64,000 nt of DNA from Kordiimonas sp. SCSIO 12610. GTDB taxonomy: Bacteria > Pseudomonadota > Alphaproteobacteria > Sphingomonadales > Kordiimonadaceae. Positions 25,028 through 63,036 of the stretch are shown one piece after another; within the stretch, counting starts at the first letter, position 1; each line of letters begins with the position of its first letter. Made by a program: the position numbers and the translations under genes. The stretch lies in assembly GCF_024398015.1 (NCBI RefSeq), contig NZ_CP073747.1:940501-1004500 (forward strand). The letters are read 5' to 3'. The notes beneath the pieces were generated by a model. That model was not told the DNA's origin. It was given only the letters and a program-made list of their open reading frames with translations, and did not search any database.

Positions 25028-25479
25028 ATAATATTTTGGCTAAACGCTAGCATTGATATTTTTGTTCTTCCGGCGGTTGGTCATGAAATTGCCAAAGTTC
25101 AATCAAAATAATAGATACACAACTATCTGGTGAATTTTGTGATGCATTTATGCGCATGATGTGATGCCTGATCATCGTTCTGCACACTGTAATGCGATTG
25201 CTTTGCCCATAAGGCGGTTGTTTGTTGTGCGTCTTCGGCGGAATCAGCAGAGTTTTGAGGTGTTCAGTATATGAAAAACGGCTTGGGGCGTCATGAATAA
25301 AGGTATTTCCTACAAACATATACTGGCATCGCTTGATAGCTCTGAAATTACTTTTAAAGCGTCTTTTCAGAATGCGTCGCCAAATAAGGCGGAAGGCGAC
25401 TTTCGCGAGCGGTTAGACCGATTAAATCAAATTGAGACTATTGAAACTATGCAGTCACGAAAGGTGTTTAAGGCTGGCC

Positions 25480-46400: not shown

Positions 46401-46476
46401 TTTTAGATCAGGCCTATGATTTAAATCGGCGTCAGGCAGCGCCTTGTATTTTGTAACTCGCCAGTTGGGGGAAATC

Positions 46477-47160
46477 ATGAAGAAATTTTTTGCACTTATG
46501 CTCGCGCTTTCCTGCGTCACAGCCAATGTATCAGCGCAGGCCTCAACCTTTGTTTTTGAAGGTGACGCTACTTTCAGAAATGTTGATGTGGCTAATTCGT
46601 TTGGTGTTACAAATGGCCTAACAACCAACTTTCAGGTACGCTTCGATCTAGACACAAATCAACCAAATACAGAAATCATAAACCTTAGTGGGGGCGATAC
46701 AGCTTCTAATTACCCAATTAGCAATAATAGCTATGTTTTAGGGAACCGGACTTGGCAAGTACCCTCAAATTTACCTTTCTTCCGAGTTGAAGATGGAAGT
46801 TCAGATTCAATTGATGTGTTATCGTTGACGGTTCTTGATGCTGGTATAGATGTTGGAGATGGTATCGTAATTGACTTTTTGACAGTTTTTATTGGTGACA
46901 CATCTTTAATTTCAAATACTTCTGCGGCTAGTGTCCGGAATTTTGTTGGAATTAATGACAATGGTGTTGGTATCCTGACCTTTTTTCTTGATTTTCCGAA
47001 TTCGAGATCACAGTCAAGTGTCCGTTTTAGTAATGTTCGACTTTCTGAATTGGCTATCTCCGCAGTTCCCGAACCCGCGACATGGTTGATGATGGTGTTT
47101 GGCTTTGCGGGTGTTGGCTTGGCGCTAAAGCGCCGCCGCAGGCTCATTGCGACCACATAG
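46477..47160 (+). CDS. PEP-CTERM sorted exoprotein inside the phage head module
   Basis: A 227-residue secreted protein: signal peptide MKKFFALMLALSCVTANVSA, a beta-rich mature domain (FEGDATFRNVDVANSFGV is similar to FTGDAFFDTNEEMALFGA in 61718-62431), and the C-terminal signal VPEPATWLMM, a hydrophobic helix and RRRR tail for an exosortase. The start at 46477 has TTGGGGGAAATC upstream; 46444 is rejected. It is bracketed by two same-orientation REP-like elements between the portal and protease genes, positions where phages normally have nothing. Host-type gene by sequence. Confidence 0.88.
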   Translation: MKKFFALMLALSCVTANVSAQASTFVFEGDATFRNVDVANSFGVTNGLTTNFQVRFDLDTNQPNTEIINLSGGDTASNYPISNNSYVLGNRTWQVPSNLPFFRVEDGSSDSIDVLSLTVLDAGIDVGDGIVIDFLTVFIGDTSLISNTSAASVRNFVGINDNGVGILTFFLDFPNSRSQSSVRFSNVRLSELAISAVPEPATWLMMVFGFAGVGLALKRRRRLIATT

Positions 47161-57655: not shown

Positions 57656-58789
57656 ATGGAAATCAAAGATTTAAAGCATGCAATCGACGCCTATAGCGAT
57701 GCTGCTGAAACTGGCCTCTCAGCGCTTGAGAGTCGTATTGACGATGTAGAAACCCAGCTTTTGCGCCCTGAAATGGGTGGCGCTGTAAAGGCATCTGGCC
57801 TTGAACTGGAGCATAAGGAAGCGTTCATCCGCGACTTTATGGTACGCGGCGACGATGAGAACCTCAAGGCGCTGGAGGCTAAGGCGCTATCGACCACACG
57901 TGACGGTACAGCCGGTTTTGCAGTCCCTGAAATGATCGATAACGAGATCGAGAAGCAGGTTCGCCGCCATTCGCCCATGCGCTCGATCTGTAAGGTCAAA
58001 ATGGTTGAAACCAGCGAATATACCCGCCTTGTGAACACCGCCGATACGCAGACCAATTGGGTCGGCGAGGAGGATGCGCGCACTGCGACCTCTGGCCCTA
58101 ATCTTCAGGAAATTAAAATCATCCCGGGTGAGATTTATGCAAATGCTGCGGTCACACAGCGTGCCTTAGACGACATGCAATTTGATGTGGAGGCATGGCT
58201 CACGGAAGATGTAGCGGACGAGTTTGCCCGCATGGAAGGTCAGGCGATTATTTCAGGCGATGGCACCAACAAACCAAAAGGCATTTTGACCTATCCAACA
58301 AATACAGACGAGGACAGCGCGCGAGCGTTTGGTACGATCCAGCACCTGGCATCGGGTGCAGCGGGCGGTCTACCAGCGGGTGATCCAGACGCCGCGGAAT
58401 TGCTGGTTGATCTTGTGCATCTTTTAAACTCCCGTTACCGGATGGGGGCTGTGTTCCTGATGAATTCAAAAACCCTATCGGTTGTTCGTAAGCTTCAGGA
58501 TGCTGATGGTAATTTCCTTTTCCGTGCGGGTATGACACCGGGGGAAAAGGGCATGCTTCTCGGTTATCCTGTAATTGAAGCTGAAGATATGGATGATATC
58601 GCGGCCGGTAATGCGCCGATCGCCTTCGGTAATTTTGAACGCGCTTACACAATCGTTGAGCGCATGGGCACAAAGGTGCTGCGTGATCCGTATTCGCAGA
58701 AACCAAACGTACAGTTCTATGCGACCAAGCGGGTTGGCGGTGCGCTCGTGAACGATGCGGCGGTCAAACTTCTGAAAATCGAAGCGTAA
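57656..58789 (+). CDS. Phage major capsid protein, HK97 family
   Basis: A 377-residue major capsid protein: a coiled-coil N-terminal delta-like scaffold region (LKHAIDAYSDAAETGLSALESRIDDVE), then the HK97 core with GFAVPEMIDNEIEKQVR, NWVGEEDARTATSGP, ELYA-like GEIYANAAVTQRALDD, ARMEGQAIISGDGTNKPKGIL, MGAVFLMNSKTL and KPNVQFYATKRVGGAL. The start at 57656 (MEIKDLKHA) follows CAAGGA. The N-terminal segment is probably removed by the prohead protease. A strong terminator follows. Confidence 0.95.
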   Translation: MEIKDLKHAIDAYSDAAETGLSALESRIDDVETQLLRPEMGGAVKASGLELEHKEAFIRDFMVRGDDENLKALEAKALSTTRDGTAGFAVPEMIDNEIEKQVRRHSPMRSICKVKMVETSEYTRLVNTADTQTNWVGEEDARTATSGPNLQEIKIIPGEIYANAAVTQRALDDMQFDVEAWLTEDVADEFARMEGQAIISGDGTNKPKGILTYPTNTDEDSARAFGTIQHLASGAAGGLPAGDPDAAELLVDLVHLLNSRYRMGAVFLMNSKTLSVVRKLQDADGNFLFRAGMTPGEKGMLLGYPVIEAEDMDDIAAGNAPIAFGNFERAYTIVERMGTKVLRDPYSQKPNVQFYATKRVGGALVNDAAVKLLKIEA

Positions 58790-58812: not shown

Positions 58813-58849
58813 CGTCGCGCCCGTTCTATCGGGGGCGGCGTTTTTTATT
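58813..58849 (+). terminator. Rho-independent terminator after capsid gene
   Basis: GTCGCGCCCG pairs with CGGGGGCGGC (one G:T-type mismatch) before six Ts. Confidence 0.8.
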
Positions 58850-58914: not shown

Positions 58915-59703
58915 ATGGCCTTATCAGCACAGGGACCGCGTGCGATCATTACCCTTGTGGGTGAAAAAGCAAAACTGAACGCGTATCAAACTTTTTCCCC
59001 CACGTTTTTGCCGCAATCCGAATATGCAAGATTGCATCTGTTAAGGCGTGGGATACTGGTGTCGAAGCCAGCCGTGGATACCAGTTTTTCTGGTCAGGGT
59101 GTTGGTGCCCTCGCACGCACTATTGGCTTTGCGGCGTCCATCAGAATGGCCAGCCGTCAGGTTTTTGCGGGTACGCGCGGCCTTTATCATCTGATAGGGC
59201 GATCAGCGCGGCTTGAAGTCGGGTTCGGTTTTGCCGCGGTTGGTACACTGACTGCGGCTAAGGTTTCAGGCGGGGTTGCGTCGCTGCAAACGGCAACTAC
59301 CCAGCGTCTTATGGGGGTGCGTGCCAGCCTGACTTTGCTGGGTAGGGCCTCCAACTTTATCATCGCCTCTAGTACCCGAATTGTGGGTATTCGGGCGCAG
59401 ATCAGGCTTGTTGGTCGTATCGCGTCTGTAACGATCGGCGCGGGGGTGCAGCTGACGGGATTACGCACAACGCTTTCGCTTGTTGGTGCCAATGCTGCCT
59501 TGCAGTATTCATCCAATTTTATGGATCAGGGTTTATCAGCAGGGCTCAGGGTTACAGGGCGCCGTGCGATACTCAGACTATCAGGGTTCGGTAGCTTGTC
59601 GCTTGATCGGCAGGTGATCCCCTTCAGGCATACTCGCATGGTTAAGCCAGAGGTTATGCGCGCGATTAAGCCAGATCGCCGCCGTCGCAGTCTTCGTGCA
59701 TAA
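58915..59703 (+). CDS. 24-residue-repeat virion-associated protein
   Basis: A 262-residue protein built largely of an internal repeat. Glycines recur exactly every 24 residues at 62, 86, 110, 134, 158, 182 and 206, each with a second Gly nine residues later (units such as GVRASLTLLG and GIRAQIRLVG). A similar GPRAIITLVG lies at residue 7. Alternating hydrophobic and polar residues suggest a beta-solenoid or fibre. The C-terminus is basic (PDRRRRSLRA). It lies between capsid and connector genes, the place of decoration or neck proteins. Start preceded by a weak GAGGGC site. Confidence 0.7.
   Translation: MALSAQGPRAIITLVGEKAKLNAYQTFSPTFLPQSEYARLHLLRRGILVSKPAVDTSFSGQGVGALARTIGFAASIRMASRQVFAGTRGLYHLIGRSARLEVGFGFAAVGTLTAAKVSGGVASLQTATTQRLMGVRASLTLLGRASNFIIASSTRIVGIRAQIRLVGRIASVTIGAGVQLTGLRTTLSLVGANAALQYSSNFMDQGLSAGLRVTGRRAILRLSGFGSLSLDRQVIPFRHTRMVKPEVMRAIKPDRRRRSLRA
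59098..59601 (+). repeat. Seven 72-bp (24-codon) protein repeats
   Basis: Coding region of the seven repeat units (residues 62-229). The DNA is strongly diverged, so the repeat is visible at protein level only. Confidence 0.75.
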
Positions 59704-59758: not shown

Positions 59759-60211
59759 ATGTCTGTTGGACCCTTTCAGGTTTTTGACGAAACGATTGAA
59801 GCCATGGGCAAAGGCACCCTCGGCGACCTAACGGCAACATCGCTTACAGCGGTTCTTTTGGATGCGTCCTATAGTGCTGATCTTTCAAATCACGCGGCCT
59901 TCGCGGACATCAGCGGCAATCAAATTACGGGTGGTACCTACGCGCCGCTTAATATTACTGGTGCCGTCTATAATGATATCACGGGCGGATTTAATTTCGA
60001 TACGGCTGATATCAGTTGGGGGCTGAATGCCACCATCCCGGATTGCCGATATCTTGCGATTGTGGTCGGCGATAGCACATCCCTCGCGCCCAGTAACCTG
60101 GTGATTGGCTTTCAGGATTTAATCACTGAGGGCGGCAGCGTATCTGCAACCAACGGCGAATTTACCGTACAGGCACCCGCAGGTGGCTGGTTCGAGGTAA
60201 CACGCAGCTAA
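59759..60211 (+). CDS. Phage decoration-like protein
   Basis: A 150-residue protein: LTAVLLDASYSADLSNHAAFADISGNQI, TGGFNFDTADISWG and DCRYLAIVVGDS resemble a family encoded in head-tail regions of alphaproteobacterial and other siphophages. Virion surface location is likely. Start at 59759 behind CAGGAG. Followed 44 bases later by the fibre-adaptor-like gene. Confidence 0.75.
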   Translation: MSVGPFQVFDETIEAMGKGTLGDLTATSLTAVLLDASYSADLSNHAAFADISGNQITGGTYAPLNITGAVYNDITGGFNFDTADISWGLNATIPDCRYLAIVVGDSTSLAPSNLVIGFQDLITEGGSVSATNGEFTVQAPAGGWFEVTRS

Positions 60212-60537: not shown

Positions 60538-61242
60538 ATGGCATATTCAAAATACTATACTGATGGCGGCTATGATGGTCGGGGCTATCGTTACTCGGGT
60601 GCTGCGACGCTCAATTGGCAAAACGCACCTGACGGCGTGAATGGCCCCAAGGGCGATCCGATTTTGCTCGCGGAGGTGAAGGATCACCTGCGCCTAAGCC
60701 ACGAGGACGAGGATGCTTACATCGGTAGTTTGATCGCGGTCGCGGTGCAGAAAATAGAGCAGCATTTTGGCCTCGCGCTCATGGAGCGGCATGTGGACAT
60801 TACGATTAATGGCACATTGCGGGATCATATTTTCAGATTACCCGTGCGGCCCGTAAGCGAGGTGATTTCGGTAACCAGCATTGACGGTGATGGTGCAGAA
60901 GTGCCCGGTGAAACTTTGGGTGAAACGATAATTCCAGCAAGCGCTTATTCGCTCCAGCCGGGGTTGGGCGCACGGTTAATTTTCAAAAACTCCAACCTTA
61001 CCTACGGTGTTGGACATGGTTTTATTCCGGTACCGCGCCAGCAATCGCTTCGTATTCGTGCTCGCGCGGGTTTTGGCCTTAGTCATAATCTGGTGCCTGC
61101 GGATATTCGCCATGCGCTTTTGATACTGACGGCCTATTTTTATAATTACCGCGGTGACGATAGTGATAACCCTTTGGCAGATGCGATGGCAAAATCGGGT
61201 GCGATGGCCCTGATGGCGCCGTACCGCGATTACCGGTTGTAG
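60538..61242 (+). CDS. Head-tail connector protein (gp6-like)
   Basis: A 234-residue protein with the connector core EVKDHLRLSHEDEDAYIGSLIAVAVQKIEQHFG, then TINGTL and FRLPVRPVSEVISV, and a C-terminal DIRHALLILTAYFYNYRGD. It matches phage connector 1 / gp6-type proteins that form the ring under the portal. The N-terminal YTDGGYDGRGYRYSG region is an extra, Gly/Tyr-rich leader. Order fits the GTA scheme. Confidence 0.9.
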   Translation: MAYSKYYTDGGYDGRGYRYSGAATLNWQNAPDGVNGPKGDPILLAEVKDHLRLSHEDEDAYIGSLIAVAVQKIEQHFGLALMERHVDITINGTLRDHIFRLPVRPVSEVISVTSIDGDGAEVPGETLGETIIPASAYSLQPGLGARLIFKNSNLTYGVGHGFIPVPRQQSLRIRARAGFGLSHNLVPADIRHALLILTAYFYNYRGDDSDNPLADAMAKSGAMALMAPYRDYRL

Positions 61243-61251
61243 GGGGCGGGT

Positions 61252-61581
61252 GTGAGAGAGCGAGCATTCGGCAAAAGGCGGGAGCGCATAACCCTGCTGT
61301 CGGCCACACGCACGGTCGGTGACGGCGGCAGGGCGGAAATAGAATACGGTGAAATCGCAACGATCTGGGCATCGGCAGAAAGCGTGGAACGCGCGATCAA
61401 TGATTTCGCGGATAAGGCCGAAATGGCGGCGGTGATCACCTTCACCGGCCATTATGCAGAGCGTTATTTTAAGGCAAGGCGGCTTATGTGGCGCGGGCGC
61501 ACGTTCCGTATCACAGCCATCACCGAACCCGATCTGATGCGCCGTGATCTGGAATTTTCAGCAGAAGAAATATTCAGGTGA
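61252..61581 (+). CDS. Head-tail adaptor / stopper protein
   Basis: A 109-residue protein beginning GERRH-like FGKRRERITLLSA, then GRAEIEYGEIATIWASAE, AAVITFTGHYAERYFKARRLMWRGRTFRITAI. This is the phage head-tail joining (SPP1 gp16) family. Start is a GTG at 61252. The next phage gene is 1.6 kb away, separated by inserted PEP-CTERM genes. Confidence 0.85.
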   Translation: MRERAFGKRRERITLLSATRTVGDGGRAEIEYGEIATIWASAESVERAINDFADKAEMAAVITFTGHYAERYFKARRLMWRGRTFRITAITEPDLMRRDLEFSAEEIFR

Positions 61582-61717: not shown

Positions 61718-62431
61718 CTAGGCTGCAGCCTTCTGACCGCGTTCGCGGCGACGAAGCGCGAAGCCCGTTAGTGCGAAACCAACAATCATCATCAGCCATG
61801 TGGCTGGTTCTGGTACTGCTGTGACCACAGAACTGAGTTGAATATTTCCAAATTCTAAGATATCGCCGCCAATAATAGACCCGCTGCTGTCGCGAGTAAG
61901 ATATATAATACCTCCTGAACCAAATGGTGAACCGTCCAAAGAGTTTATATTTCCGGCATTAAAGACATTGGCACCAATGCCGGAAAATACATCAATTGCA
62001 GAACCAGAGAAACTAAAATTGCTTGCTCGAATTGTACTGAATTCTGATAGAGCTATGTTCGTTGACCCACCAAAAGCTAACTGGTCACCAGCTAGGGGAG
62101 GAGCAGATACAGTCCCATCAATAATGGTAACCCGACCACTATTCACGGTATAGTTTACTGAACCAACAGAGATTGCCAAACTGATGAAGTTGTAATTGGA
62201 AATATCTCTCGCTGGATCTGATGATACATCAAATGCGTCAGCCAGCGATTGATTGTTATCGAAAATTAATTCCGCCGTAAATGCCTCGAAGGTACTGGAT
62301 GCCCCAAACAATGCCATTTCTTCATTGGTGTCAAAGAACGCGTCACCAGTGAAGGTAAAGGTCGTTGTCTGTCCGTGAACTGAGCCCAGTGAAAAAACGC
62401 TTAAAAGCGCTGCAAAAATTAGTTTCTTCAT
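61718..62431 (-). CDS. PEP-CTERM sorted exoprotein, operon gene 2
   Basis: A 237-residue secreted protein: signal peptide MKKLIFAALLSVFSLGSVHG, a domain starting TTTFTFTGDAFFDTNEEMALFGA similar to the exoprotein at 46477, and the C-terminal VPEPATWLMM, hydrophobic segment and RRRERGQ tail. TTGGGGGTAATTC lies before the start. It follows the gene at 62455-63036 by 23 bases, forming an operon on the strand opposite to the phage genes. Confidence 0.88.
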   Translation of the reverse strand: MKKLIFAALLSVFSLGSVHGQTTTFTFTGDAFFDTNEEMALFGASSTFEAFTAELIFDNNQSLADAFDVSSDPARDISNYNFISLAISVGSVNYTVNSGRVTIIDGTVSAPPLAGDQLAFGGSTNIALSEFSTIRASNFSFSGSAIDVFSGIGANVFNAGNINSLDGSPFGSGGIIYLTRDSSGSIIGGDILEFGNIQLSSVVTAVPEPATWLMMIVGFALTGFALRRRERGQKAAA

Positions 62432-62454: not shown

Positions 62455-63036
62455 TTAAAGTTGTAATGTTTGACTACGTTCGTGGCGACGAAGCGCGAAG
62501 CCCGTTAGCGCGAAACCAACAATCATCATCAGCCATGTGGCTGGTTCTGGAACGGCACTGGTGAGAGAAATATTGTCAATGTTCAGGCTTGTACCATCGG
62601 GCGTCAGTTCAAACACCAAGGTATCAATAAGATCAGATGTTCCAGTAGTGATAGTAGAGAAAGAAAACCCCGACGCTGGTTGGGGTACAAAACCTGCGAT
62701 ATTAAAGATATTAACACCGTCTAAAAGGCCCATTATTGAAAAAAACGCAGAACCATTATTTGCGGCCAGGTCGAATGAATTGAAAGTAAACGTATTACCA
62801 GTTACGGTTACCGTGCCAGTGTTACCATTACGTATAAATAGGCTCGGCACTGGGTTTCCAAATGCTTGAGCCTCTAAAAATGCACCAGTCGCAGTTATTG
62901 AAAAACCGTCTTCGTTATAAGGTCCACTGAAAGGTGTGCCATTGCTTCCGGTAAGTCCATCAAAGGTTATAACTTCTGCTTTCGAATGAATAGATAGTGT
63001 CAACAGAAGTATAATTGTTGTAGTCAATATTCTCAT
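62455..63036 (-). CDS. PEP-CTERM sorted exoprotein, operon gene 1
   Basis: A 193-residue secreted protein: signal peptide MRILTTTIILLLTLSIHSKA, then FDGLTGSNGTPFSGPYNEDGFSITATG (a beta-sandwich typical of PEP-CTERM proteins), FNSFDLAANNGSAFF, and the sorting signal VPEPATWLMM with a hydrophobic helix and RRHER. AGGGGG precedes the start. First gene of a two-gene operon; the C-terminal signals of both genes are near identical in DNA, suggesting recent duplication or gene conversion. Confidence 0.88.
   Translation of the reverse strand: MRILTTTIILLLTLSIHSKAEVITFDGLTGSNGTPFSGPYNEDGFSITATGAFLEAQAFGNPVPSLFIRNGNTGTVTVTGNTFTFNSFDLAANNGSAFFSIMGLLDGVNIFNIAGFVPQPASGFSFSTITTGTSDLIDTLVFELTPDGTSLNIDNISLTSAVPEPATWLMMIVGFALTGFALRRHERSQTLQL

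Follow-up and report, generated by a model that had tools for sequence, protein, structure and literature searches.

The DNA analysed here (the window) comprises 64,000 nucleotides of the genome of Kordiimonas sp. SCSIO 12610, which forms one contig of 3.5 Mb, and judged by its gene content it carries a prophage (a dormant virus) of this marine bacterium that is of the HK97 type and siphophage-like. The structural genes follow the order terminase, portal, protease, a 1667-residue spike, major capsid protein, the repeat protein that is the subject of this analysis, a small phrog_644-family protein, a Gp77-type adaptor (PF23148 score 78.6, cut-off 27), connector, head closure and tail completion, and more phage-like genes are found past the window's end (Table 1). 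The prophage may be inactive. The repeat gene lies two genes upstream of the Gp77-type gene, and the phrog_644 protein encoded between them is a probable partner of the repeat protein. With 6 terminator-like sites in the region, where 2.2 would be expected, the hairpin between the capsid and repeat genes is weak evidence on its own.

Table 1. Positions in the window of the repeat protein gene, its parts and the surrounding features
Feature	Position	Strand	Evidence or remarks
Large beta-helix/PKD/LamG-like spike, 1667 aa	51276..56279	+	PF13229 E 5.8e-11, PF18911; PF02210 below cut-off
Major capsid protein, HK97 type	57656..58789	+	PF05065 E 9.5e-79, phrog_10 E 4.8e-73
Terminator-like hairpin and T-run, between capsid and repeat genes	58821..58848	+	Consensus match
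Repeat protein gene (P0001), 262 aa	58915..59703	+	ORF and translation; syntenic orthologue in G024
N-terminal region, residues 1-61	58915..59097	+	Partial unit at 7-24; conserved in orthologue
Seven-unit array, 24 residues per unit, Gly at 1 and 10 of each	59098..59601	+	Translation, autocorrelation
Unit starts	59098, 59170, 59242, 59314, 59386, 59458, 59530	+	
Basic C-terminal tail, residues 230-262	59602..59700	+	11 K/R, 3 D/E; conserved in orthologue
phrog_644-family small protein, 150 aa, next downstream of repeat gene	59759..60211	+	phrog_644 E 2e-8
Gp77-type fibre-tail adaptor, 94 aa	60252..60536	+	PF23148 E 5.2e-22; phmmer to 8jou_D E 4.6e-6
Head-tail connector/adaptor	60538..61242	+	PF05135, phrog_442
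Head closure/completion protein	61252..61581	+	PF05521, phrog_25

The 1667-residue protein probably serves this phage as its receptor-binding or depolymerase spike. In the genus's one other genome (G024, from an uncultured Kordiimonas sp. and referred to below as the sister genome) the spike has 2753 residues (L027 2967-11228), and the best aligned stretch of the two covers only ~229 residues at 74% identity, with both termini alike by eye. An Acyltransferase_3 gene (PF01757; 56303-57400, minus strand) stands between the spike and capsid genes and has no counterpart at that place in the sister genome; it is therefore possibly an accessory gene, perhaps surface-modifying and of the serotype-conversion type. 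The structural cluster also contains PEP-CTERM genes (46444-47160, plus strand; 61718-62431 and 62455-63036, minus strand), which carry an exosortase-type sorting signal (PEPATWLMM...) and occupy two conserved places, with one and two copies here and three at each place in the sister genome (L039 15440-18213, plus strand; L027 15372-17901, minus strand); phage-borne PEP-CTERM cargo of variable number is unusual.

A glycine-punctuated array of 24-residue units

Residues 62-229 of the repeat protein form seven 24-residue units that follow one another without a gap. Glycine opens every unit (residues 62, 86, 110, 134, 158, 182 and 206), and a second glycine stands nine residues after the first in 7/7 units. 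The first-pass annotation had described seven consecutive units with these two glycines and no insertion over 168 residues, and this description was confirmed, since two all-glycine columns over seven units arose in 0 of 20,000 shuffles of the protein and a single such column in 2 of 20,000. BLOSUM autocorrelation has maxima at lags 24 (z 5.9-6.1) and 48 (z 6.9), compared with a top z of 4.4 across 500 shuffles. Lesser peaks at lags 9, 15, 33 and 57 indicate that each unit is itself divided 9+15, and on the sequence pattern two strand-turn elements, one of 9 and one of 15 residues, make up the unit. Unit 3 is off-motif apart from its glycines.

Hydropathy alternates by position within the units, and the variance of the column means (3.47, null maximum 2.80) reveals a strong pattern, in agreement with the hydrophobic/polar patterning noted earlier. 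A search of the gene for a DNA tandem repeat found none, even with a low threshold; the period is therefore preserved in the protein although the DNA units have diverged, as had been proposed. The array is strongly basic (19 K/R, 2 D/E). It is flanked by parts that the first-pass annotation had omitted: the region 1-61, in which residues 7-24 form a partial unit out of phase with the array, and the tail 230-262, in which arginines at 232, 241 and 249 are each followed by V/I and P (p = 0.17 against shuffles). No transmembrane segment was found in the protein, whose 19-residue hydropathy maximum of 1.3 rules out a transmembrane reading. Since it neither spans the membrane nor lacks repeats, the outcome that would have spoken against the earlier description, a predicted disordered or transmembrane structure with no regular repeats, did not arise.

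AlphaFold2 placed ~three strands in every 24 residues (pLDDT 46 overall, about 60 in the repeats and up to 68; pTM 0.49), a low-confidence model that suggests a beta-strand fold of the units. A fold search of the PDB with this weak model gave no match below E 0.3 and nothing usable. The model of a 22-residue-repeat protein of another phage (pLDDT 59) has regular strands as well, and the two models share some weak viral structural neighbours, but neither is reliable enough for a fold to be assigned.

These strands could belong to a single-chain solenoid or to a trimeric, interwoven beta fibre with the same role, and the latter is a possible, if rather doubtful, alternative. Triple beta-spirals form the fibres of adenovirus and reovirus, and most phage fibres are trimeric. 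The 9+15 substructure with a glycine turn in each unit, the weakness of the single-chain models and the three Gp77 chains in the entry for podophage GP4 (8jou) are all consistent with a trimer. The PDB holds no sequence relative of the repeat protein, and the top match, although insignificant, is to reovirus sigma-1 (E 0.77). Against a trimer, single-chain modelling still yields regularly arranged strands for both repeat proteins, and the viral structural neighbours of these models overlap. Of the earlier suggestion of a beta-solenoid or fibre, the fibre has gained support from the gene context described below, and regular beta structure is suggested by the low-confidence model.

A further proposal, that the units polymerise as amyloid-type repeats into a self-assembling fibre like curli, is very improbable. 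The length of the units is close to that of curlin repeats, and several 'curlin associated' phage proteins are among the weak structural matches; however, the probability of these matches is low, no curlin Pfam match to the repeat protein was found at E up to 10, and a Gln/Asn ladder is not visible in the units.

An orthologue with conserved ends and a divergent middle

Searches with the repeat protein gave no family above noise in Pfam and PHROGs, no real match among 50,697 phage records and no relative in IMG/VR by single sequence or two-row alignment. Three weak matches from an order-wide genome search (L003-L005) were discarded, since they lie in cellular genes with no relation to it or in odd frames. 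A single relative could be detected, the syntenic gene of the sister genome. By its sequence the protein belongs to a new family, so far represented in two Kordiimonas-group genomes, and the earlier statement that no named family has this period and motif holds for Pfam and PHROGs; it needs qualification in that similarly built proteins are widespread beside Gp77-type genes.

Identity to the orthologue is 41-45%, compared with 88-89% for the capsid protein, and most of the structural neighbours are 73-93% identical (phrog_644 protein, 83%; tail completion protein, 86%). In the repeat protein, conservation is confined to either side of the array, to residues 1-61 and 230-262. Identity is 58-67% in the ends (29/50 for residues 1-50 and 22/33 for the tail) and 37% in the array (45/122 aligned), which is not evolutionarily frozen: the orthologue has ~five units, a difference that the first-pass annotation did not include, and a Gly-rich insertion. 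Because the ends are conserved and the middle is both fast-changing and variable in length, the array may be a spacer between two attachment points. The connector reading frame of the sister prophage (L027 14276-14677) encodes 133 residues as opposed to 234 here, pointing to a disrupted gene or a misassembly in that genome.

The place of the gene inside the head-neck morphogenesis cluster is kept in the sister genome. This conservation, together with beta periodicity and an architecture like that of annotated minor tail proteins, argues against a role outside the particle, whether as an assembly helper (a fibre chaperone or scaffold) or as a lysogenic accessory protein. Such a role, with which the strongly basic array and the hairpin separating the gene from the capsid gene would be compatible, is decidedly unlikely.

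Periodic proteins beside Gp77 homologues in other phages

A survey of 11 Gp77-bearing phage genomes found a gene with 18-26-residue periodicity (z above 4) within three genes of the Gp77 homologue in 7 of them, compared with 2 of 151 control ORFs, a contrast that is indicative because the survey is small, covers 6-kb flanks only and draws on genomes that are not independent. The seven phages (Mae-JY04, Aegeus, REQ1, Mae-JY22, Wigglewiggle, GodonK and CRP-345) have hosts in Mycobacterium, Gordonia, Rhodococcus, Microcystis and Roseobacter, and the Kordiimonas protein fits the same class by its lag-24 signal and its distance of two genes from Gp77. Proteins with 18-26-residue units near Gp77 include GodonK gp95/gp96, Aegeus gp25, Wigglewiggle gp24, REQ1 Orf64 and those of Mae-JY04 and Mae-JY22. 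Several of the periodic proteins have N-terminal LamG or Gly_rich_2 domains and match PHROG 'minor tail protein' families, and the small companion gene is either of the phrog_644 type or, in other phages, homologous to gp80 of GP4 fibre I. Unlike the Kordiimonas protein, those of actinobacteriophages and cyanophages are mostly longer, and several have glycine-rich N-terminal domains; an N-terminal binding domain, seen in many periodic proteins, is missing here. Many of them end in 8-9-residue R-x-V-x-V units, to which the match of the Kordiimonas tail is not significant (p = 0.17).

One of the two periodic control ORFs, from the Desulfofustis phage DPMD02_11 (OP947159; L080 4201-6057), encodes a 618-residue 'virion structural protein' that combines a LamG domain with a 24-residue array (z 11.9); it lies between terminase and portal genes, and an adjoining small gene product aligned with phrog_644 proteins, so by its sequence it looks like the same kind of protein. 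The REQ1 Gp77 homologue (25171-25425; L072 6001-6255) overlaps the end of a 'primase/polymerase' gene and is unannotated, and thus was probably missed. Gp23 of mycobacteriophage Douge was considered as the periodic protein and set aside, since it is a BppU (modelled to residue 311) with a carbohydrate-binding module. For the periodic proteins from two phages of cluster L, the PDB gave no real match. In a 2026 preprint on mycobacteriophage Mysterious, two minor tail proteins with predicted polyglycine-rich domains, gp31 and gp32, are absent from the cryo-EM map (PMC13252515), which, by analogy, would agree with proteins of this sort being difficult to resolve.

In Gordonia and Mycobacterium phages (GodonK, Aegeus and Wigglewiggle) the cassette lies between tape-measure or minor tail genes and the lysin gene, that is, in the tail module, so lying behind the capsid gene has no diagnostic value. 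This finding leaves the earlier proposal of head decoration unsupported. A head fibre that projects from the capsid lattice, with its basic tail anchored on the major capsid protein, would agree with the location of the gene directly behind the capsid gene and ahead of the connector gene, and head fibres have a precedent in the alphaproteobacterial phage 7-7-1 (PMC12796354). However, such a fibre is unlikely, given the cassettes in tail modules, the Pfam name of GP4 Gp77 as a fibre-to-tail adaptor, and the prophage on contig L030 of IMG/VR, where the capsid protein is 55% identical and the corresponding gene encodes an unrelated protein.

The contents of this slot, upstream of the phrog_644-type and Gp77 genes, were compared across related prophages. 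It holds the unrelated fibre-like protein of 1195 residues in L030, fibre-like proteins of 1200-1371 residues in L055 and L058/L059, a 684-residue LamG spike in L054, and a 552-residue protein in L060 that combines a beta-helix-like part with 24-residue units (lag-24 z 11.8); Gp77 is present by tblastn in all of these loci. The slot protein of L023 (genome G525) is of the LamG type and has a weak 22-residue period. Because the contents differ among prophages of the same order, the slot appears to be a place where spikes or fibres are exchanged. The L060 protein resembles the Kordiimonas protein in unit length and in a short tail with arginine, but its units differ in motif, and both it and the L054 protein have N-terminal spike or LamG domains fused on.

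Uncultured phages encode 22-residue repeat proteins (G-x-[FY]-x-L-x-G-x-x-A-x-L; MW202742 5003-5737 and the IMG/VR loci L042 and L043) that share a core ([LIV]-x-G-x-x-[AS]-x-[LF]) and basic C-termini with the Kordiimonas protein, and in L028 and L043 a phrog_644-type gene is close by. Their period is 22 rather than 24 residues, and a profile (HMM) of the 22-residue repeat gave p = 0.36 against the Kordiimonas protein; the kinship suspected by eye from this motif was not supported by HMMs and shuffles and is treated as analogy only. An HMM of the L060 units gave p = 0.09, and a cyclic profile comparison with other phages' repeats was marginal (p = 0.03). An HMM of the Kordiimonas protein's own units barely recognises its true orthologue (p = 0.017), so such profile tests have low power and are indecisive either way. 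The link to the repeats of other phages is thus one of position and architecture, by analogy, and descent is not claimed.

The repeat protein as a candidate fibre stalk

Given the Gp77 gene two genes downstream and the periodic proteins beside Gp77 elsewhere, the repeat protein is probably a virion fibre stalk within a Gp77-type cassette that consists of repeat protein, phrog_644 protein and Gp77. Presence in the particle, fold, contacts, orientation and place of attachment, at the neck or the tail, are all parts of a proposed model. The 24-residue units would form short beta strands stacked as an elongated rod, probably a beta-solenoid with ~three strands per turn, and the array would serve as a spacer whose length changes as units are gained or lost. 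Specific contacts would be made by the two conserved ends, the N-terminal region and the basic C-terminal tail; at least one end would contact the Gp77 adaptor or the phrog_644 protein, docked on the neck or tail, and the other may hold a further protein, for instance the 1667-residue beta-helix spike, which has a gene of its own.

Among the closest comparisons is that with the fibre I and adaptor of podophage GP4 (gp77, PF23148; gp80, PF23140; solved structure 8jou), where the part played by Gp77 gave the family its Pfam name of fibre-tail adaptor; nothing like the Kordiimonas repeat protein was recognised in the PDB. In a cluster L mycobacteriophage, the small gene next to that of the periodic protein encodes a homologue of GP4 Gp80; in the window, by contrast, this place is taken by the phrog_644 protein, which had no Pfam match and was ruled out as a Gp80 homologue (hhalign probability 1.7). 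A profile of this neighbour gave a single weak match to the tail wing arm gp31 of Bxb1 (9d93; E 0.0033), a possible lead to phrog_644 function that does not concern the repeat protein itself. In JC1 virions, a 92-residue 'virion-associated' protein, similar in size to the 94-residue Gp77-type adaptor here, was detected by mass spectrometry, and tail fibre genes lie directly after its gene (PMC9144972); we infer that this protein is a Gp77 homologue.

Proteins of this kind are widespread and mostly unannotated, while the sequence of the Kordiimonas protein itself is new. Such proteins escape profile libraries because their repeats change too fast, even between orthologues. It is tempting to propose, with considerable reservation, that they constitute an unnamed and very widespread fibre class whose phages infect Alphaproteobacteria, Actinomycetota and Cyanobacteria. 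Members would combine a glycine-punctuated stalk of 18-26-residue beta repeats with Gp77 and phrog_644 or Gp80, be anchored by a conserved C-terminal tail and exchange their N-terminal domain; the Kordiimonas protein would be a stripped-down member.

Fibres determine which bacteria a phage infects, and a combination of period and neighbours (Gp77, phrog_644 and Gp80) offers a way to find fibre stalks that are annotated as 'hypothetical'. The classical tail fibre is anchored by its N-terminal end. If the proposed class is real, C-terminally anchored fibres would reverse this layout, and whether such fibres are anchored by the C-terminal end is a testable question raised by this analysis.
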